Shown here: positions 18,788 to 64,000 of the stretch, in pieces
Position numbering within the stretch: the stretch's first letter is position 1
How the letters are laid out: each line of letters opens with the position of its first letter
Source of the DNA: Symbiodinium natans
Lineage: Eukaryota; Sar; Dinophyceae; Suessiales; Symbiodiniaceae
Length of the DNA stretch: 64,000 nucleotides
Assembly: GCA_905221605.1 (NCBI GenBank)
Contig: CAJNDS010000058.1
Location: 756,992-820,991 of the forward strand
Direction of reading: 5' to 3'
Position numbers and translations under genes: made by a program
Notes under the pieces: model-generated
Database searches by the model: none
What the model was told of the DNA's origin: nothing
What the model saw: the letters and a program-made list of their open reading frames with translations, nothing else

Positions 18788-19289
18788 AATCCAGAATAAA
18801 CACCACATCATATAAACTCTACACGCTGAGAGGTCTGGACCATGTGCAGTCTAGGTAGGTCTTCTATGCAAAGCCTGACGTGGAAGGTTCCCCAGCTCCC
18901 CTTCTAGGGGGCTCCCTTAAGGGGATTCTGCTGTATTTGGGGCATATGAGGGGTACCCCTATTTGGGACATACTAAGGATGTAGGAGTTCAGGTGCCCTT
19001 GACCTCCAAGACCCAAAGGCTTTGCATCCTACACCCTAAAACCCTAAAGCTCGAAGCCTCGAAGCAGAAAAAGAGCCTGCTGTTCTGCAACAACGCCCCT
19101 GGCCGTACGTTCCTTGTATGATCCTTTTGGAACTTGAAGCTCTAGACCAGGCCCGCAGAAATACCCGTGTACCCCTTGTTTCGTTTTGTGGTCCTCTGAC
19201 AGAGTAGAGACAATAAAGCCAACAAACCCTAAACAAGACCAGAGTGGACGGAAACAGCGACCCCGAATATTGTAGGTGGTGCCCGTCCG

Positions 19290-19605
19290 GGTATGCGCCG
19301 GGTGCCCGGGTATGCGCCGGGTATGCGCCGGGTATGCGCCGGGTATGCGCCGGGTATGCGCCGGGTGCCCGGGTATGCGCCGGGTATGCGCCGGGTGCCC
19401 GGGTATGCGCCGGGTATGCGCCGGGTGCCCGGGTATGCGCCGGGTATGCGCCGGGTATGCGCTGGGTATGCGCCGGGTGCCCGGGTATGCGCCGGGTATG
19501 CGCCGGGTATGCACCGGGTGCCCGGGCATGCGCCGGGTGCCCGGGTATGCGCTGGGTATGCGCCGGGTGCCCGGGTATGCGCCAAGTATGCGCTGGGTGC
19601 CACCC
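19290..19605. repeat. Minisatellite of GGGTATGCGCC and GGGTGCCC units
   Basis: About 25 units alternate between an 11-bp (GGGTATGCGCC) and an 8-bp (GGGTGCCC) module, often in a regular higher-order pattern. All frames are open on both strands, giving 110-194 codon frames of repeated AHTR/CAGYAPGMRR peptide that I regard as artefacts. Confidence 0.9.
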
Positions 19606-20511: not shown

Positions 20512-20965
20512 GGCATGTATGTATATGCTTTGAAGACAGCTTGCGCGGCTTTTAACAAAGGAGGGGATTGGGAGGGAGCGCGGCCCCCCCCCCCCCCCAT
20601 TTGCAAAACACGATTCTCGCATGATGGGTTTTCAAAATGTATGAATAAAGCGGGGAGGTTGGGTGGGGGGTGGGGGGGGGGGAGGCCCCCAAATTTGCAA
20701 ACACGATTCTGGCATGATGGATTTGCAACATTTTAATGTATGCATATGGCATATGCTTTGAAGCAAGCTTGCTTGGCTCAAAAAAAACGGGGGGGTTGGG
20801 GGGGGGGGAGCCCCCCCATTTGCAAACACGATGCTCGCATGATGGGTTGCCGAAAATGTATGCATATGCGTTGAAGCAAGCTTGCGCGGCTAAAAATAAA
20901 GCGGGGGTTGGGACTTTCGCATGATGGATTTCCAACAATGTATGCACATGCTTTGAAACAAACTC
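20512..20965. repeat. Tandem repeat of about 90-130 bp, four copies
   Basis: Each unit contains a GTATGCATATGCTTTGAAGC start, CTTGCGCGGC, a G- or C-homopolymer block, and CGCATGATGG. The last copy is cut at the junction with the 10-bp array. Confidence 0.85.
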
Positions 20966-21322
20966 GTGCGTACTCGTGCGTACTCGGGCGTACTCGGGCG
21001 TACTCGGCGCCCTCGGGCGTACTCGGGCGTACTCGGGCGTACTCGTGCGTACTCGTGCGTACTCGTGCGTACTCGTGCGTACTCGTGCGTACTCGGGCGT
21101 ACTCGTGCGTACTCGTGCGTACTCGGGCGTACTCGTGCGTACTCGTACTCGTGCGTACTCGTGCGTACTCGTGCGTACTCGGGCGTACTCGGGCGTACTC
21201 GGGCGTACTCGTGCGTACTCGGGCGTACTCGTGCATACTCGGGCGTACTCGTGCGTACTCGGGCGTACTCGTGCGTACTCGGGCGTACTCGTGCGTACTC
21301 GGGCGTACTCGTGCGTACTCCG
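20966..21322. repeat. 10-bp minisatellite TACTCG(T/G)GCG
   Basis: About 35 copies of TACTCGTGCG or TACTCGGGCG with few defects (one TACTC insertion, one CGCC). With a 10-bp unit every frame is open and gives a 10-residue repeat such as STHEYARVRT. The longest minus frame (20552-21397) begins ATG-TCGGAC in unique DNA (MSDSKTGKRAEGNRLVHCG), so a translated repeat cannot be excluded. Confidence 0.9.
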
Positions 21323-43758: not shown

Positions 43759-45675
43759 TCACCGCACCAGCCATCGTGCAATCTCCAAGTGCCCGTTCTC
43801 ACGTGCGAACGTCAGAGCTGTCCTGCCTTCATTGTCTGTCAAGTCCTTGTCTGCACCAGCTTCCAACAGCAAGCGTGCAATCTCCACGTGCCCGCTGTCA
43901 CATGCACACATGAGAGCTGTCCCGCCGTCATTGTCAAACGAGTCCTTGTCAGCACCAGCTTCCACCAGCAAGCGTGCAATCTCCAAATGCCCAATGTCGC
44001 ATGCAAACGTGAGAGCTGTCGAGCCTTCATTGTCTGTCAAGTCCTTCTCTGCACCGGCTTCCACTAGCAAGCGTACAACATTCAAATGCCCCTTGGCACA
44101 TGCGAGCATAAGAGCTGTCCTGCCTGCACCGCTTGTCAAGTCAATATTTGCACCAGCTTCCATCAGCAAGAGTGTAATATGCAGGTGGCCCTTGTGACAT
44201 GCAAACATGAGAGCCGTCCATCCGTCACTGCTTGTCAGGTCCAAATCAGCACCAGCTTCCACCAGCAAGCGTGCAATCTCAAGGTGCCCGTTGTCACATG
44301 CGAACGTGAGGGCTGTGCAGACGTCATTGTTAGGCAAGTTCGTGTCAGCACCAGCTCCTAGCAAGCGTGCAATCTCCAAGTGCCCTTTCTGACATGCGAA
44401 AGTCAGAGCTGTCCTGCCTTCATTGTCTCTCAAGTCCGTGTCAGCACCTGCTTCCACCAGAAACTGTACAATCTCCAAGTGCCCGTTCTCACATGCGAAG
44501 GAGAGAGCTGTCCTGCCTGCGTGGGTTGTCAAGTCCATTGCACCAGCTTCCACCAGCAAGCGTGCGATCTCCAAATGTCCGCTGCCACATGCAAACGTCA
44601 GAGCTGTCCAGCCATCATCGTCAGTCACGTCCGTGTCAGCACCAGCTTCCACCAGCAAGCGTGCAATCTTCAAATGCCCCTTGTCACATGCGAACGTGAG
44701 AGCTGTCAAGCCTTTTTTGTCTGTCAGGTCCTTCTCTGCACCGGCTTCCACTAGCAAGCGTACAACATTCAAATGCCCCTTGGCACATGCGAGCATAAGA
44801 GCTGTCCTGCCTGCACCGCTTGTCAAGTCAATATTTGCACCAGCTTCCATCAGCAAGAGTGTAATATGCAGGTGGCCCTTGTGACATGCAAACATGAGAG
44901 CTGTCCAGCCTTCACTGCCTGGCAGGTCCATGTCAGCACCATCTTCCACCAGCAAGCGTGCAATCTCAAAGTGCCCGTGGTTACATGCGAACGTGAGTGC
45001 GGTCCCAGTGTCCACCAGCAAGTGTACAATATCCAGCTGCTCGTTGGCACATGCGAACTTGAGAGCTATCTTGCCGGCACGGTTTGTCAAGCTCTTGTCA
45101 GCACCAGCTTTCACCAGCAAGCGTACTATGTCCAAATGCCCCTTCTCACATGCGAAGGTGAGAGCTGTCTTGCCTGCGTCGGTTGTCAAGTCCATATCAG
45201 CGCCAGCTTCCACCAACAAGTGTGCAATCTCCAAGTGCCCGTTGGCACATGCGAGCATAAGAGCCGTCCTGCCTGCACGGTTTCTCAAGTCCTTATGAGC
45301 ACCGGCTGTCACGAGCAAGTGGGCAACCTGCGCAAGGCCGCTTGAGGCGGCGTGTAGGAGCTCATTTCCAGCTGTCCGTGCTCCAAACTCTTCATGCGCC
45401 AAGGAAGGCTTTAGCCACAGCTGCAGCTCCAATGGCTCGTCCAGCACCCTGTCATCGTCCAGCCTCGTGCTGCAATGCAAGAGCTCTTGGAGGCACGCAG
45501 GGAAACCGTGCAGCTGGCGCAAGTGGCGCTTCAGGGCAGCAACGTTGCTCAACTCCTCCCTGGACAAGGAGGCCAGCTCTGCACCAGAAATGCCCCAAAC
45601 ACGGAGCATCTGGGTGACAGGGACAATGTCGAGGCCTTGATCTAGATTGTGCCGTCGCCATGGCAGTATGAACAA
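43759..45675 (-). CDS. Ubiquitin-like domain plus ankyrin-repeat protein
   Basis: An uninterrupted 638-codon frame. Residues about 23-90 (MLRVWGISGAELASLSREEL ... LELQLWLKP) form the ubiquitin-like N-terminus seen in many Symbiodiniaceae ankyrin proteins. About 17 ankyrin repeats follow (RTALTFACENGHLEIARLLV + EAGAD-DLTDN), one shortened (VDTGTALTFACNHG) and others lacking one or two residues. Repeats serve protein binding; the target is unknown and no catalytic domain is present. The true start may be Met23, which directly follows an acceptor-like CCCTGTCACCCAG. The last repeat is cut by a frameshift. A 175-bp block is identical to another 687 bp away. The gene is intronless while its neighbours have many introns, which suggests origin through a processed copy. 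Confidence 0.93.
   Translation of the reverse strand: MFILPWRRHNLDQGLDIVPVTQMLRVWGISGAELASLSREELSNVAALKRHLRQLHGFPACLQELLHCSTRLDDDRVLDEPLELQLWLKPSLAHEEFGARTAGNELLHAASSGLAQVAHLLVTAGAHKDLRNRAGRTALMLACANGHLEIAHLLVEAGADMDLTTDAGKTALTFACEKGHLDIVRLLVKAGADKSLTNRAGKIALKFACANEQLDIVHLLVDTGTALTFACNHGHFEIARLLVEDGADMDLPGSEGWTALMFACHKGHLHITLLLMEAGANIDLTSGAGRTALMLACAKGHLNVVRLLVEAGAEKDLTDKKGLTALTFACDKGHLKIARLLVEAGADTDVTDDDGWTALTFACGSGHLEIARLLVEAGAMDLTTHAGRTALSFACENGHLEIVQFLVEAGADTDLRDNEGRTALTFACQKGHLEIARLLGAGADTNLPNNDVCTALTFACDNGHLEIARLLVEAGADLDLTSSDGWTALMFACHKGHLHITLLLMEAGANIDLTSGAGRTALMLACAKGHLNVVRLLVEAGAEKDLTDNEGSTALTFACDIGHLEIARLLVEAGADKDSFDNDGGTALMCACDSGHVEIARLLLEAGADKDLTDNEGRTALTFARENGHLEIARWLVR
44041..44215. 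repeat. Identical block within ankyrin gene, copy 1
   Basis: Identical to 44728-44902 (offset 687 bp, 229 codons). Other repeats in the gene differ at many silent sites, so this is a recent duplication or gene conversion. Confidence 0.85.
44728..44902. repeat. Identical block within ankyrin gene, copy 2
   Basis: See 44041-44215. It encodes ANIDLTSGAGRTALMLACAK and flanking residues in both places. Confidence 0.85.
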
Positions 45676-45762
45676 AACAACCTACTTAAATCCAAAGTGC
45701 CCTAAATCCTGAACCCTAAACCCTAAGCCCTAAGCCCTAAACCCAGATTCGGAACCAAAGAC

Positions 45763-56400: not shown

Positions 56401-56645
56401 ACGAAAGGAATACGGAACCCTCATCCCTGAGGGTTTAGGGTTTAGGGTTTAGGGATTAGGGTTTAGGGTTTAGAGTTTAGGGTCTAGGAAACCTTGCCAT
56501 GAATTGAGGACCTTGAGGCGGTACAAGTCACAGGGAGCTTGCCCCCAAACAGCCCTGGCGCCCTACAAAAGGCAAGCTACACCCTAAACCCTAAACCCTG
56601 AACCCTAAACCCTCAACCCTAAACCTAAACCCACACGCCTTTGAC

Positions 56646-57176: not shown

Positions 57177-57256
57177 CTTTGGGATGCTGGTTGAGGCACA
57201 CCCTAAACCCTAAACCCTAAACCCTAAACCCTGCTTTGGGATGCTGGTTGAGGCAC
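57177..57256. repeat. Telomere array flanked by 23-bp direct repeats
   Basis: GGGATGCTGGTTGAGGCAC (with CTTT before it) occurs at 57177-57199 and again, identical, at 57234-57256. Four CCCTAAA units lie between. It abuts the rhodopsin exon at 57266. Confidence 0.92.
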
Positions 57257-57265
57257 GCGCTTCAC

Positions 57266-57289
57266 CTTCATCCTGCTGCAGTAGTTGTC
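57266..57289 (-). CDS. Rhodopsin exon, end of helix G / cytosolic start
   Basis: DNYCSRMK, phase 0. Acceptor CTCCACCCTGCAG|, donor ATGAAG|GTGAAG. Directly continues helix G (...YIQRIK + DNYCSRMK), a basic segment placed at the membrane face. Confidence 0.7.
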
Positions 57290-57609
57290 CTGCAGGGTGG
57301 AGGACGCGGGAATACCCCAGTCTGTCTCGCGTAAGTAGGTCAGTTCTCTACAAGCCCTAAACCCTAAACCCTAAACCCTAGACCCGAAAGCCTTGGATCT
57401 GGTACACCTGACTTTAGGATGGAGAGCTGTGCGGCTCGGCTTCGCTTCGGTCAGCTCTTCGTGACCCTAAACCCTAAACCTAAAGCCTAAAGCCTAAACC
57501 CTAAACCCTAAAGCCTGAAGCCTAAACCCCCTAACCCTGGACCTAAATCCTAAACCCTAAACCCCAAACCCTAAGCCCTCCCCCCCCCCCCCCCGCCCTC
57601 GCAAGGTGC

Positions 57610-57675
57610 CTTGATCCTTTGGATGTAGAAGATGAAGGTAAACTTGGACACGATGTTGAGGAAGGCCCATCCAAC
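57610..57675 (-). CDS. Microbial rhodopsin, helix G exon
   Basis: Twenty-two codons in phase 0 ending FLNIVSKFTFIFYIQRIK. The lysine in IVSK aligns with the retinal Schiff-base lysine (K216 of bacteriorhodopsin). The residue four before it, Asp212 in bacteriorhodopsin, is Asn here. Acceptor TCGCTGGGAG|, donor ATCAAG|GCACCT (GC). The peptide is a strongly hydrophobic helix followed by basic residues. It follows the helix F and F-G loop exons in order and in phase. Confidence 0.82.
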
Positions 57676-57726
57676 CTCCCAGCGACATGTCAGGGGTTTA
57701 GAGTTTAGGGTTTCGGGTTTACGGCG

Positions 57727-57890
57727 AAGGGTTTAGGGTTAGGGTTTAGGGTTTAGGGTTTAGGGTTTAGGGTTTAGGGTTTAGGGTTTAGGGTTTAGGG
57801 TTTAGGGTTTAGGGTTTAGGGTTTAGGGTGTAGGGTTTAGGGTTTAGGGTTTAGGGTTTAGGGTTTAGGGTTTAGGGTTTAGGGTGCAGA
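57727..57890. repeat. TTTAGGG array, about 23 units
   Basis: G-rich array inside the intron between the F-G loop exon and the helix G exon. With CCCTATAAA and other arrays it makes up most of this 1.2-kb intron. Confidence 0.96.
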
Positions 57891-58533
57891 GGAAAATCGA
57901 TGCGTATACCTCTGCGCTTGTACTATGGGAGGGAAAAGGGAAGAAAGGGGTGTTCTTCGGGCTTGTTTTATGGGCCTCCAAGACCAACCCTAAAGCCTGA
58001 ACCCTACACAGCCCTGAACCCTAAACGCTAAACCCTAAACCCTAAACCCTAATCCCTAAACCCTAAACCCTAAACCCAGTTTGTTCGCTGAGGGTTTAGG
58101 GCTGCTGAGGACACCTCTGGATGCCTTGACCGCTAGGCGGCTTCGAAGGGTTTAGGGCTGAGGGCTCCCAAACCCCCGCAACGAGGGTTTAGGGCTTAAT
58201 TAGGGTTTAGGGTTTAGGGTTTAGGGTTTAGGGTTTAGGGTTTAGGGTTTAGGTTCAGGGTTCAGGGTTTAGGGTTGAGGGTTCTTCAACAATCCTGCCA
58301 CCAGGTTCCCCAGCACCACAAGAATGAAAATGCCGCCCTTTCCTGCCTAATGCGGCTTGTAAAGGAACCCTACACCCTAAACTCTAACCCTAAACCCGAA
58401 ACCCTAAACCCTAAACCCCAAACAAGGAGGACTTGTTGGTTTGAGGAAAGGGTTCAGGGGGTCTTGGGGTTCCGCGTTCACGCTTCGCTCGAGGCTTCTC
58501 CTGAGGTTTAGGGCTTACAGCCTGTAAACCCAA

Positions 58534-58680
58534 AACCCTATAAACCCTATAAACCCTATAAACCCTATAAACCCTATGAACCCTATAATCCCTATGAACC
58601 CTATAAACCCTATAAACCCTATGAACCCCATAAACCCCATAAACCCATAAACCCTATAAACCCTATAAACGCTGGACCCT
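58534..58680. repeat. CCCTATAAA nonamer array
   Basis: About 16 units of CCCTATAAA with CCCTATGAA and CCCCATAAA variants, inside the rhodopsin intron. Similar blocks lie at 42440-42540 and 50370-50690. Confidence 0.92.
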
Positions 58681-58797
58681 ATACCCTAAACCGGAAGTTG
58701 AGGGTTCGAACTTAAATCCCTAAACCCTAAACCCTAAACCCTAAACCCTAAACCCTAAACCCTATACCCTAAATCTGAAGTTGAGGGTTTTAATTTC
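58681..58797. repeat. Telomere array flanked by about 33-bp direct repeats
   Basis: ATACCCTAAACCGGAAGTTG + AGGGTTCGAACTT at 58681-58713 recurs in diverged form at 58764-58797 (GAAGTTGAGGGTTTTAATTT). A CCCTAAA array lies between. Confidence 0.75.
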
Positions 58798-58833
58798 AAG
58801 GGCGTCGGTGCAAGGTTCAGGGCACCGAGAGGC

Positions 58834-58862
58834 CTGGATGAAGACCACGTCCGTGATGAGCC
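58834..58862 (-). CDS. Microbial rhodopsin, F-G loop / start of helix G
   Basis: LITDVVFIQ preceded by two bases that complete the Gly codon left by the helix F exon. Acceptor CACCATCGCCCAG|, donor ATCCAG|GCCTCT (GC). Inserted between F and G it gives a loop of the length usual in type 1 rhodopsins. Confidence 0.75.
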
Positions 58863-59508
58863 CTGGGCGATGGTTTCGGTTTTAGGGTTTTGGAGGTTTT
58901 AGGGCTTTGGCTAGGGTTTAGGGCTGTAGGGGTTTTAGGGGTTTAGGGTTTGAGGGCTTTAGGGTTTTAAGGTTTAGGGCTTAGGTTTCGGGGTCCGTGG
59001 TTTCGAGGTTTAGGGTTGAGGGCTTAGGGGTTGAGGGCCTTGAGGGACAGGAAAGGGCCGCAAGGGCCGAAGCAGAGGTGGCCAACCCTCCAGCAATTCC
59101 GACTTGCCACAAGGGGCGCCTGGCTGAACGTTTAGGAAGTTATGACCGAGGCAACAGGATAAAACCTGAGGCCAAACCCTGAACCTTGTATCTGAACCCG
59201 TTCTTTTCTCCCGTTAGCCCAGCATTTGTCAGACACCTAACCCTCCAAACCCCTGTCCGTCCAGGGTACACTGTCCAGGGTGCAGGGTTTGGGGTTAAGG
59301 TTTCAGAGACTTTCATCCCTAAACCCTAAACCTCCTCCAACCCTAAATCCTAAACCCCAAACCCCAAACCCCAAACTCAAGAAAGCCAACCTTGGCATGT
59401 GGGCGATACAAGCCGCATGGAGCCCGAAGCCCGAGACACTACAGTGTATGGGAGCACCAAAGCTCCCGAAGCCCTCGAAGATGAATTTGGGGTGTAGGGC
59501 TTATGAAA

Positions 59509-59657
59509 GGGTTCTTAAGGGAGGGGGATTCATGGAAGGGTAGGTAGGTACCTAGCAAACCTTAGGGAAGCTTAGGGAGCCTCAGGGAGTAGTAGGGAGT
59601 TTTGGGGAACCTTGGGTTACATACCCCCCCTTTGAACCCCCCCTCCCTTAAGAACCC
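59509..59657. mobile_element. Inverted-repeat element, family F
   Basis: GGGTTCTTAAGGGAGGGGGA at the left; CCCCCCTCCCTTAAGAACCC at the right. Inside are CTTAGGGAAGCTTAGGGAGC-type repeats. Confidence 0.75.
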
Positions 59658-59885
59658 TGTAAGCTTCAGGATGTGGGCTCCAGGCTTTCGGGTTTCCATC
59701 TGTACAATCACCCAGACCTTCAACTCAAGACTCCCCAACGCTGTGAGAGCCCTTCATGCCCCGCAATCCCTAACCCTAAACCCTATAAACCCTAGACCCT
59801 AAACCCTAAACCCTAAAGCATAAACCCTAAACCCTAAACCCTATATAAACCCGAAACCCGAAACCCCTACCTGCATCCGGGCATC

Positions 59886-59965
59886 CTAAGCCCTCCGTCG
59901 ACAGCGCGTAGAACACCGGGAAGGGCACCCACGTCACGATCAGCAGCACGGAGGCCCGTCGAAAG
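59886..59965 (-). CDS. Microbial rhodopsin, helix F exon
   Basis: RRASVLLIVTWVPFPVFYAL then STEGL, with one split base at each end. Aligned to bacteriorhodopsin: W182, F for Y185, P186, Y for W189 and E194 (the TEG). This is the helix F signature of retinal proteins. Acceptor ATTCTCCCCCTCCAG| is excellent. The donor that gives the normal F-G spacing is GA (CTTAG|GATGCC). A GT (GCAG|GTAGGG) ten bases further would give the same phase with extra residues that lengthen the loop. Confidence 0.82.
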
Positions 59966-59999
59966 CTGGAGGGGGAGAATGGCTAACACTGGCGGGTTT

Positions 60000-60165
60000 A
60001 GGGTTTAAGGGCTTAAGGGTTTAAGGGTTTAAGGGTTTAGGGGTTTAGGGGTTTGAGGGTTTAAGGGTTTAAGGGTTTAGGGGGTTAAGGGTTTAAGGGT
60101 TTAAGGGTTTAAGGGTTTAAGGGTTTAAGGGTTTAAGGGTTTAAGGGTTTAAGGGTTTAGGGTCT
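60000..60165. repeat. GGGTTTAA octamer array
   Basis: About 20 tandem units of GGGTTTAA with a few GGGTTTAG, next to the helix F exon. Confidence 0.93.
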
Positions 60166-60329
60166 AGGGTTCAGGGTTTAAGGGCTTAGGGTTTTACTAT
60201 CATGCATTTATTGATGCTTCGGGTCTGTGTCTTCGTACTCTTTCTACAAGCTATGTTGCTCTTGGTCTTGGTCTTCAAGACGCCTACGCTGTTCTTACCT
60301 CGTGCTCTTCCTCTTCCTTATACTCTTCA

Positions 60330-60480
60330 TCTTACTCTTCATCTTACTCTTCATCTTACTCTTCATCTAGAACTACTGGAACGGGGATGGCGATGGTAAC
60401 TACGACGACTACGACTACGATCACGACTTCGACTACGACGACGACGACGACGACTACTGTTACTTCTACTGTGTTACCGA
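60330..60480. repeat. Trinucleotide and dodecamer microsatellite
   Basis: (CTTCATCTTACT)n at 60330-60368 and (ACG)n/(GAC)n words at 60395-60465. Frames over them are low complexity. Confidence 0.88.
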
Positions 60481-61015
60481 ACCTTGACCGGATTTGCCAA
60501 ACACGAGTCCTGATTGACAGGACTTTGCCGAACAGATGGACCGCATATTTGGCCAACCTTTTTTAAGAATATACATACACATGAATAAGCAAATACTTAT
60601 ATAGCTAAGAGAGGATTTGGGGTTAGGGGGTCCATGTAAGGGCCAAGTAGCTCCGAATCGCCCGACCTTGGTCAGCGAGGGCGTCTACAGCAGTGGACTT
60701 GGGGACGTGGGCAGCGAAGTGAGTTCAAGGGTTTAGGATTCAGGTTCAGGGTCTAGGTCTAGTTTGTAGGATTTTCTTGTTCTGATTTGTTTTTCTTTCA
60801 TTTTTTCTTGGCGGGGAGGGGGGGGGGGGGAGGTGATGCAATCTAAGTGGCCGCATATGGCTTCCTATCAGAGCTAGGGACTGCGGCTGCTACACTTAAG
60901 CCCTGAAGCCCTGAATGCTAAACCCTAAACCCTAAACTGCAGGCCCAAACCCTAAACCCTAAAACCTAAGCCCCGAAGCCCTTCAGCCCAGAACGCCGAG
61001 GGGCAAAAGGCCTTC

Positions 61016-61066
61016 CTGCCCGTCACTGTGCTCGATGATCTGCACGCGGTTCAGGAAGAACATGGT
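61016..61066 (-). CDS. Probable rhodopsin exon, helix E end and E-F loop
   Basis: TMFFLNRVQIIEHSDGQ, seventeen codons, phase 0. Acceptor TCGGAGCCTGAG|, donor GGGCAG|GAAGGC (GA). Together with the exon at 61221 it makes a hydrophobic segment followed by a polar one, in the right place before helix F, but no diagnostic residue proves it. A small connecting exon toward 59965 would be needed for phase. Confidence 0.45.
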
Positions 61067-61220
61067 CTCAGGCTCCGAGGGTTGCGTTTTAGGGTTTAGG
61101 GTTTAGGGTTTAGGGTTTAGGGTTTAGGGTTTAGGGCTGGGGGTTCGGTCTCCTAAACCCGCAAGGGTTGCAATCTTAGGGGTTGGATCTCTTGAGACAA
61201 GGGGCACTGGCAAAGCAGAC

Positions 61221-61244
61221 GCCCACGCCGTAGGCCACGTAGAT
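61221..61244 (-). CDS. Probable rhodopsin exon, start of helix E
   Basis: IYVAYGVG, phase 0. Acceptor CTGTCGCGACAG|, donor GTGGGC|GTCTGC. The frame continues VCFASAPCL if the donor lies further on. Confidence 0.4.
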
Positions 61245-61299
61245 CTGTCGCGACAGGCTTAGGGTTTAGGGTTTAGGGTATAGGGTTTAGGGTTTAGGG

Positions 61300-64000
61300 T
61301 TTAGGGTTTAGGGTATAGGGCTCACAAGACCGTTGAACCCTAAGACCTGCACCGTGAGGAGGGCTTTAGGCCTCATGGGGTTCAGGGCTTGGGGCTTGAG
61401 GGGTTCATATTGGCGAATTTGGGGCGCTTGCCCAAAGAACACAGGCATGAGGCTTGGCAGGAGCCCTGTGCGGGGAAGAACTCCAACAGAACTTCAAAAA
61501 AAAGTCCCCCCAAACCCTAAACCCTAAACCCTAAACCCTAAACCCTCCTCAGGCATACACCATCCACACCGAGAACCCTCGATCATCCTCCACCCTGACT
61601 CGTGCTTCAAGACCTTGTGAGCTCTACCCCTTGAACCTATAAGCAGGAAACACCTAAACCCTAAACCCATGCTTCCGCCCCTTTCATGCAGTACATAGCT
61701 GCACAGATTCGCAACATGGGGTTTAGGGTTTGGGGTTTAGGGTTTAGGGTTTAGGGTTTAGGGTTTAGGGACCCAACCGCACCCCATCAGTCAGGGGACC
61801 CAGATATCCGACACCAGCATCGATGTGGTCCCGCAGCAAAGCACCGTTACCGACCTGGTGCTACGCTTCTCAACAGCATTTGGATTCAGGGTTTAGTGCC
61901 TTTAGGGCTTAGGGTTTAGGGTTAGGGGGTTAGGGTTTAGTGTTAGGGTCCCTTAAAGGGATGCCTATCTTAAATGGTTACCCTGAACTCGAAAACCCGA
62001 AACCATGCACGGCAGGCAGCTAGACGAGACGGCCCAGAATGCCCAGGGGTCTACCCACATCGAGAAGTGCGTGCGGCCTTCTTTGCTGTGCGTTGCGCGC
62101 GATTTGAACCTAAGCGCCTCGGTTGCCACGTTTGACCCGCGCGTCGTACGCGCGCCTCACTTCAAACACAAAATATTTGCAAAGCCGCGACGGCCGTGAC
62201 CCCAACAGGAACCACGCGAAGCACTGCGACTGCGATGTTTTGCGTTCTGCAGCCCAGAATAAACGCCCCTGAAACCCAAAGCCCCAAAACCACAAACCTA
62301 GCTTATAAACCCTAAACCAAAAAACCTAATTCCAAAATTTGACCAAAAAGAGCTCGAGACACTAGACTTCTCAGTCTCAAGCCACGGACCCAAGCTCCAG
62401 GATTAAACCCCAGCCCCGTATGACTCACGAGCCCTACCCCGAATATCAAGAATAAGCTTCAGGTGGAGGGTTGTGGGTTCCCTAAACCCTAAACCCTAAA
62501 CCCTAAACCCTAAACCCTAAACCCTAAACCCTAAACCCTAAACCCTAAACCCTAAACCCTTTAGGGTGGAGGCCTTGGGAGTTGAGGGTCGGGGTTCAGG
62601 GGTGATTGTATTATTTCCTTTGTAGTGTGAATCCTTGACCCGAGCCCTTGCCTAAACCCTAAACCCTAAACCCTAAACCCTAAACCCTAAATCCTAAACC
62701 CTAAACCCTAAACCCTAAACCCTAAACCCTAAATCCTAAACCCTAAATCCTAAACCCTAAACCCTAAACCCTATAACCCTACACCCTAAACCCTAAATCC
62801 CAAACCGTAAAGCCCTCAATGCTGAGGACTTGGAATTCAAGGACCTCAACAACTGCATATAGTCCTGGGCCCGAATCTCCAGGTGAACCAAGTCGGAGGT
62901 TTAGGGTTTAGGGTTTGGGGCTTGGGGCTTGGGGTTTGGGGCTTGGGGTTTAGGGTGACAGGGCTTCAGGTTTAACTTTACGGGTGCGAGCGCTGCTCCA
63001 GAATTCAGGCGATGGCGGCGCTTAAATAGGGTTGCAGTTTCCCTAAACCCCTAAACCCTAAACCCTTCACCCTAAACCCTAAACCCTACACCCTAAACCC
63101 TAAACCCTAAACCCTAAACCCTAAACCCTATACCCAAAACCCTAAACCCTAATCCTAAATCCTAAACCCGAAACCCTGCACCTAAACGATTTGGGAGCAG
63201 GTTTCGGGTGCCGCTAGGAAGCAGTCCGGGCATCAGCCAACGCCGGTACTCGGGAATTCGCGAGCCTCGGCTTGAAAGCAGCTCTAGGGTTTAGGGTTTA
63301 GGGTTTAGGGTTTGGGGTGTAGGGGTTGGGGTTTAGGGCTTCGGGTTTAGGATTTAGGGTTTAGCGTTTAGGATTTAGGGTTTAGGGTTTGGAGTTTGGG
63401 GCTTAGGGTTTAGCAGGCTTTTCGGGTGTGTCACGTGCTCCGTGCACATCACCACGCGGGACTTGTGTTGTGGTGTTGCGCCAAGGTTTACGCTCCCTCC
63501 CAACCCGCCCACGCAATCTATGCCCTTGGTCCCCTAAAGCCTATAAACCCTAAACCCTAAACCCCAAACCCTACACCCTACACTCAAAACCTAACGCCCT
63601 TCCAGGTGCAGCTATCGGAGCCCCTTGATATGGGCCCGCCCTTCAACAAAAACAAAAAGAGCTTAAATCAAAACCCGGGACCCAAAACCCGAAACCGCAA
63701 GTCCCAACCCCCAACCAGCAAAGCGTGAACCCCAGACTCCCCCCGGGCCTGCTTCGGCCGTACCCTTTTCCAAGGAACCCTAAACCCTAAACCCTAAACC
63801 CTAAACCCTAAACCCCAAACCCCAAACCCCAAACCCCGAACCCTAGGGTGCCTGGAACTACACCTGTCAGCCATTCACACCTCTTGCTTGGAAGTGCTGT
63901 GCCCCAAAGCGTGCCGGGTCTTGACACCATCTTGGGGTCCGCCTGTGGCCGACTAAGCCCCTGAGGCAGTTTTAAGGTTTAAGGTTTAGGGTTTAGGGTT
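61300..64000. other. Right flank: telomere arrays and unresolved islands
   Basis: Helices A-D of the rhodopsin should lie here or beyond the window. Minus-strand islands that read plausibly include 62040-62110 (THFSMWVDPWAFWAVSSSCL) and 62815-62885 (EIRAQDYMQLLRSLNSKSS). Plus-strand islands at 61790-61885, 63430-63535 and 63845-63955 are also open. I saw no retinal-protein motif for helices A-D. Arrays at 62480-62560 and 62650-62790 are C-rich. Confidence 0.4.

Follow-up and report, generated by a model that had tools for sequence, protein, structure and literature searches.

A probable channelrhodopsin-family gene split among telomere-like repeats in Symbiodinium natans

The rhodopsin gene and its surroundings

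The window, by which we mean the whole 64,000-nucleotide stretch of Symbiodinium natans DNA that was analyzed (C58:756992-820991), carries a rhodopsin gene on its minus strand at 57610-63281, from which seven exons (29-97 nt) were joined in phase to give 139 residues, from the C-D loop through helices D to G. The seven exons of our model A amount to 417 nt free of stops, the joins having been selected for phase, and the Trp, Pro, Glu, and retinal lysine are all positioned as expected. A sequence-only reading of the same DNA had recognized helix F (FRRASVLLIVTWVPFPVFYALSTEGLG), the F-G loop (LITDVVFIQ), and helix G (VGWAFLNIVSKFTFIFYIQRIK), and these do lie on the minus strand and join in phase as it had proposed. 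It had expected helix D to the right of the window, whereas helices D and E sit inside it at 61.2-63.3 kb. Two ankyrin-repeat open frames on the same strand (43759-45681, 640 residues, and 37079-38140, 353 residues) are unsplit, in contrast to the rhodopsin gene, and we take the ankyrin proteins of the window to resemble those of Symbiodinium. Two minisatellites, at 19287-19598 (11-bp unit CCGGGTATGCG) and 20962-21320 (10-bp unit ACTCGTGCGT), are open in several frames, and scans of the window for Rfam families and tRNAs returned no match.

The exons (all on the minus strand) were located largely by tblastn with two paralogues from the same genome, one on contig C103 (L008) and one on contig C2063 (L036), whose upstream matches fall in order at 63287-63228, 61853-61806, 61232-61206, and 61063-61004. 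Exon E1 (63223..63281) encodes the C-D loop and the start of helix D (LLSSRGSRIPEYRRWLMPG), with an uncertain 5' acceptor and a GC donor, and is matched in phase by both L008 (E 0.040) and C2063 (E 0.017). Exon E2 (61800..61854; AG acceptor, GT donor) continues helix D (SVTVLCCGTTSMLVSDIW) and is in phase, with a match to C2063 (E 0.37) and a profile segment of 35.5. Exon E3 (61206..61244; AG acceptor, GC donor) encodes part of helix E (IYVAYGVGVCFAS) and is the weakest single match (YGVGVCFAS against YGFGLCLAS in tblastn, E 24), absent from the profile chain described below; it is placed between E2 and E4 by its order, length, and phase. Exon E4 (60995..61066) holds the end of helix E and the E-F loop (TMFFLNRVQIIEHSDGQEGLL), has an uncertain 3' end at 60995 (GT donor) or 61005 (GC donor), and is matched by L008 (E 0.21), by C2063 (E 0.12), and by a profile segment of 51.0; the two phase-consistent forms of its join to E5 are nearly equal, scoring 379 and 382 to C2063. 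Exon E5 (59886..59982), beginning at 59982 or 59965 and ending in a GA donor after TTAG, encodes helix F (FRRASVLLIVTWVPFPVFYALSTEGL) and is matched by L008 (E 6.6e-7) and C2063 (E 2.1e-7). The 29-nt exon E6 (58834..58862; AG acceptor, GC donor) encodes the F-G loop (GLITDVVFIQ) and is placed by phase and spacing alone; GLITD is also found in the paralogue on C1910. Exon E7 (57610..57675; GC donor) encodes helix G with the retinal lysine and an Asn at the Asp212 place, and is matched by C2063 (E 8.7e-6). A search of the whole genome with C2063 also recovered the helix F exon (E 9.4e-4) and the helix G exon (E 0.088). The six introns span 57676..63222 and measure, in model A, 1368, 555, 139, 1012, 1023, and 1158 nt. 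The earlier statement that no exon exceeds 80 bp holds for the 80-nt model of the helix F exon and fails for the 97-nt model. A fourth island near 57266 (57235..57350), which had been read as a basic cytosolic start, is unsupported as a part of the gene: it matches no paralogue among the matches listed, and the chain of C-terminal segments is at chance level.

All six introns end in an AG acceptor, and their donors are GC in three, GT in two, and GA in one (model A). The available text of a published review gives 25-74% GC/GA-AG introns for Symbiodiniaceae (PMC11453091), and introns of the paralogues were likewise read as GC-AG and GA-AG. Agreement with this dinoflagellate pattern is a weak test, because the sites were chosen with the pattern in mind, and several of them were picked to fit the paralogues. 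The sequence-only reading gave no exon ends; its F-G join, which we reconstructed using the GT donor at 59871, comprises 63 residues and scores 16.5 bits against Pfam PF01036 (E 0.006). The GA donor at 59886, 15 nt upstream, raises this stretch to 21.4 bits (E 1.9e-4), below the cut-off of 24.6, restores a Glu-to-Lys spacing of 23 residues, equal to the count in the paralogues, and gives a loop (EGLGLITDVVFIQVGW) resembling that of the C1910 paralogue (EGFGLITDPFVIEMGW). The GT join, with 28 residues from Glu to Lys, scored lower than the GA join against both C2063 (364 vs 379) and L008 (269 vs 280), so that by comparison with the paralogues the GA donor appears to fit the helix F exon better. 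A 14-nt LITD microexon (354 to C2063, 279 to L008) was dropped, although its loop does better than the preferred one against solved structures (E 0.0012 vs 0.011).

Family membership and relatives in the genome

The longer join passes the PF01036 cut-off in both versions (30.8 bits in model A and 31.6 in model B), while the F-G stretch alone falls below it with either loop; the profile check suggested by the sequence-only reading comes out positive for the extended gene and under the cut-off for the stretch that it had seen. As a control independent of the splice choices, we derived a profile from L008 together with five paralogues and chained its ungapped segments. The minus strand at 56-64 kb yields five profile segments in collinear order, with a chain score of 315.1; the maximum was 130.8 among 23 real 8-kb stretches and 156.6 among 100 dinucleotide shuffles. 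The 60-64 kb part alone, which contains only the newly found exons, reaches 144.4, whereas none of its 100 shuffles exceeds 100.2. The window gene is identical to C2063 at 72 of 130 residues, the sole gap lying in the E-F loop. Over 127 codons, the first, second, and third positions differ from C2063 in fractions of 0.35, 0.25, and 0.56, and another codon is used at 34 of the 69 identical residues; this excess at third positions is what past selection on a coding sequence would leave. Searched against solved structures, the 139 residues gave weak matches (best E 0.011), in which the named rhodopsins are not channelrhodopsins and one structure hit at a similar E is no rhodopsin.

The genome (759,417,921 bases in 2543 contigs) was searched with C2063, the best candidates being scored; the 60 matches at E ≤1 place related genes, with sizeable or several exon matches, on at least ten contigs besides C58, namely C103, C2063, C1513, C1942, C1845, C1842, C1910, C1945, C2243, and C2199. 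Six of these were read (C103, C2063, C1513, C1942, C1842, and C1910), and all six carry TCP in helix C (as EWILTCP, EWVLTCP, or EWLATCP) and an Asn four residues ahead of the lysine. The window gene has the same motif order as C2063 and C103, and its Schiff-base lysine in helix G, aligned to that of the paralogue, lies in NIVSK, which it shares with C2063, C1942, and C1513; the Asn four residues ahead of this lysine occupies the place of bacteriorhodopsin Asp212. Gene structure differs among the copies: C103 is a single open frame coding for 370 residues, the helices of C2063 fall into two long frames, and the window copy has at least seven exons. In a tree of 12 sequences, the window gene groups with five same-genome TCP/Asn paralogues with support of 97/94 and lies nearest C2063, and an earlier gene model gave the same grouping (98/97); its end branch is long (0.80 vs a median of 0.12), which makes its placement uncertain. 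Among solved structures, C2063 is closest to PDB 6eid, named ‘Archaeal-type opsin 2’ (E 1.1e-10, including the EW-LTCP stretch), which we take to be channelrhodopsin 2. This structure has Asp rather than Asn four residues before the lysine (IIDLMSK), and it is not among the matches of the window fragment searched alone.

The available part of a published report (PMC8406140) describes rhodopsins of dinoflagellates that carry TCP and have Asn (in one case Leu) where bacteriorhodopsin has Asp212. Compared with that family, which includes SmChR1 of Symbiodinium microadriaticum and the metagenomic mgdChR1, the Asn in place of Asp212 is found in the window gene and all six paralogues read, and TCP in all six paralogues, a likeness judged by published motifs. 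Since the Asn is present, the paralogues carry TCP and Asn, and the tree groups the window gene with them at 97/94, we file it as a probable member of the dinoflagellate channelrhodopsin family, and probably a new and divergent one. The central claim of the sequence-only reading, a type I rhodopsin gene split among telomere-like repeats, is thus borne out by the profile and the tree, yet the title given to it was broader than the result, for the rhodopsin family looks already published (PMC8406140, as far as its available text goes) and the repeats belong to the genome rather than to the gene. The gene family is already known; the odd part is the repeat-filled gene structure. The genome holds a sizeable dinoflagellate channelrhodopsin family, the divergent copies of which are visible to a six-frame search only exon by exon.

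A second rhodopsin group (L031, L033, L034, and L035, on contigs C2310 and C720) consists of single frames of 398-479 residues with TCS for TCP and, by eye, Gly at the Asp85 place and Asn at the Asp212 place, and its members perhaps have, therefore, no carboxylate counterion. Rhodopsin genes of near-equal scores also occur in clusters, seven in L001-L007 (C2053:177912-189763) and five in L013-L017 (C1817:556834-572059).

Missing gene ends and competing explanations

We consider it likely that the islands are exons of one nuclear dinoflagellate gene of the channelrhodopsin family, encoding a retinal-binding protein of seven helices. Its pre-mRNA would be spliced across the repeat-rich introns, and the N-terminal exons for helices A-C would lie further to the right, perhaps in the 5 kb beyond the window that read N. 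The protein would bind retinal at the NIVSK lysine and act as a photoreceptor, most likely, by analogy with measured relatives, as a light-gated channel in photobehavior. In the available text of PMC8406140, a Symbiodinium microadriaticum protein gave small passive photocurrents once its N-terminal extension was deleted, and dinoflagellate channelrhodopsins are proposed as photoreceptors for coral-symbiont phototaxis. The same text reports that one of five tested metagenomic relatives was electrogenic, with small currents, and of the six family members in the tree the window copy sits on the longest branch. Conceivably, then, the product is a rhodopsin of this family with another activity, either a sensor without a channel or a non-electrogenic protein; we rate this somewhat short of an even chance, given the Asn at the Asp212 place and the close similarity to TCP members, and it is compatible with the identity of the gene.

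With both ends of the gene missing from the sequence searched, the main rival to an intact gene is a decayed copy: a duplicate of a channelrhodopsin-type gene that would have shed its ends, be unexpressed, and have taken in repeats without constraint. No exon for helices A-C was found in 63.2-64 kb (best N-terminal segment 23.7) or in 69-94 kb, where the best segment (33.7) stays below the plus-strand control (36.7), and the TCP of helix C is unseen in the window copy, no helix C exon being present in the readable sequence. The chain for C-terminal exons (117.6) is no better than chance, since 14 of the 100 shuffles and 9 of the 28 real stretches scored at least as high. The long branch and an E-F loop unlike that of the family point the same way. 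However, the 417 nt run through seven exons without a stop or frame break (although the joins were chosen in phase), the codon positions bear the pattern of selection (although this is also a record of the past), and the retinal pocket retains its lysine, Trp, and Pro, so that we regard decay as unlikely. That short open stretches between repeats mimic rhodopsin helices by chance is hardly credible, for although every exon apart from the helix F and helix G exons is a weak match alone, none of the 100 shuffles or 23 real stretches attains the chain score and these two exons are matched in a search of the whole genome. Beyond helix G, the minus strand at 56527-56571 reads GARAVWGQAPCD after a fair acceptor, like the ARELYGLSPSD that follows helix G in the paralogues, at a noise-level score.

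Telomere-like repeats and the introns

Repeats of the TTTAGGG type cover 37% of the window, with 153 exact runs of at least three units (longest 18) in both orientations. Telomere-like units, in both orientations, make up 31-63% of each of the six introns of the rhodopsin gene, as against 2.4% of the exons. TTTAGGG is given as the dinoflagellate telomere unit in the available text of PMC11453091, and the arrays here, like interstitial telomeric sequences, are TTTAGGG/CCCTAAA arrays off chromosome ends. We sampled the genome in 17 hand-picked stretches of at most 1.5 kb spread over contigs (24,351 bases, one stretch mostly N) and found 15.9% to be telomere-like (median 14.3%, zero in 4 of the 17), while four other heptamers of the same composition gave 0.55-1.5% when measured in this way. 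The share in the sampled stretches indicates that the repeats characterize the whole genome and are not specific to the gene; extrapolated from this small sample, telomere-like DNA would amount to over 100 Mb of the genome. A role of the repeats as a mark of the rhodopsin family is excluded by the paralogues, since telomere-like DNA makes up 41.2% of the gene span in the window, compared with 0.5-14.1% of five paralogue loci and 0.0% of the single-frame C103 locus. We propose that the introns are repeat-rich because telomere-type repeats spread and decay across the genome at large. Interstitial telomere signals were rare by FISH in three Karenia species, according to the available text of PMC6395649, by which comparison the amount of repeat here looks unusual; the arrays here are mostly short and degenerate, and maybe invisible to FISH.

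A bolder reading is that telomere-type repeats are a main intron-building material in this genome, seeding or swelling introns genome-wide and helping to break genes up into exons a few dozen bases long. The rhodopsin genes would supply a series for it, from C103 (one frame, no repeats nearby) to the window copy with its introns of 31-63%. The copy on C1842, however, has many short exons and 0.5% telomere-like DNA, so the splitting of exons needs no such repeats, and dinoflagellates are known to gain introns through introners (available text of PMC11453091 and PMC7789003); on these two grounds the reading is weakened, and we hold it to be doubtful, the swelling of existing introns being the form of it least hurt by C1842. 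No title on telomere-repeat introns in dinoflagellates was found among the matches listed, in a search of titles covering few subscription journals. If about one-sixth of the 759-Mb genome is decayed telomere-type repeat, as the sampled stretches suggest, the filling and enlargement of introns could be tested with paralogues and sister species. The window gene stands out from the routine by the telomere-like DNA in its introns, and this feature, which is shared by the genome at large, merits separate study.

Unlike in introners, the visible filling of the introns here is a telomere-type repeat. The introners of Amoebophrya have direct end repeats of 3-5 nt (available text of PMC7789003 and PMC11453091), which recall the short repeats at some junctions here. 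Short direct repeats were seen at some paralogue splice junctions, for example GCTTCT in C1942. By eye, the introns of the paralogues on C1942 (L039), C1910 (L060), C1842 (L059), and C1513 (L037) sit at neighboring codons that in most cases do not coincide, giving the impression of repeated intron gain near the same places.
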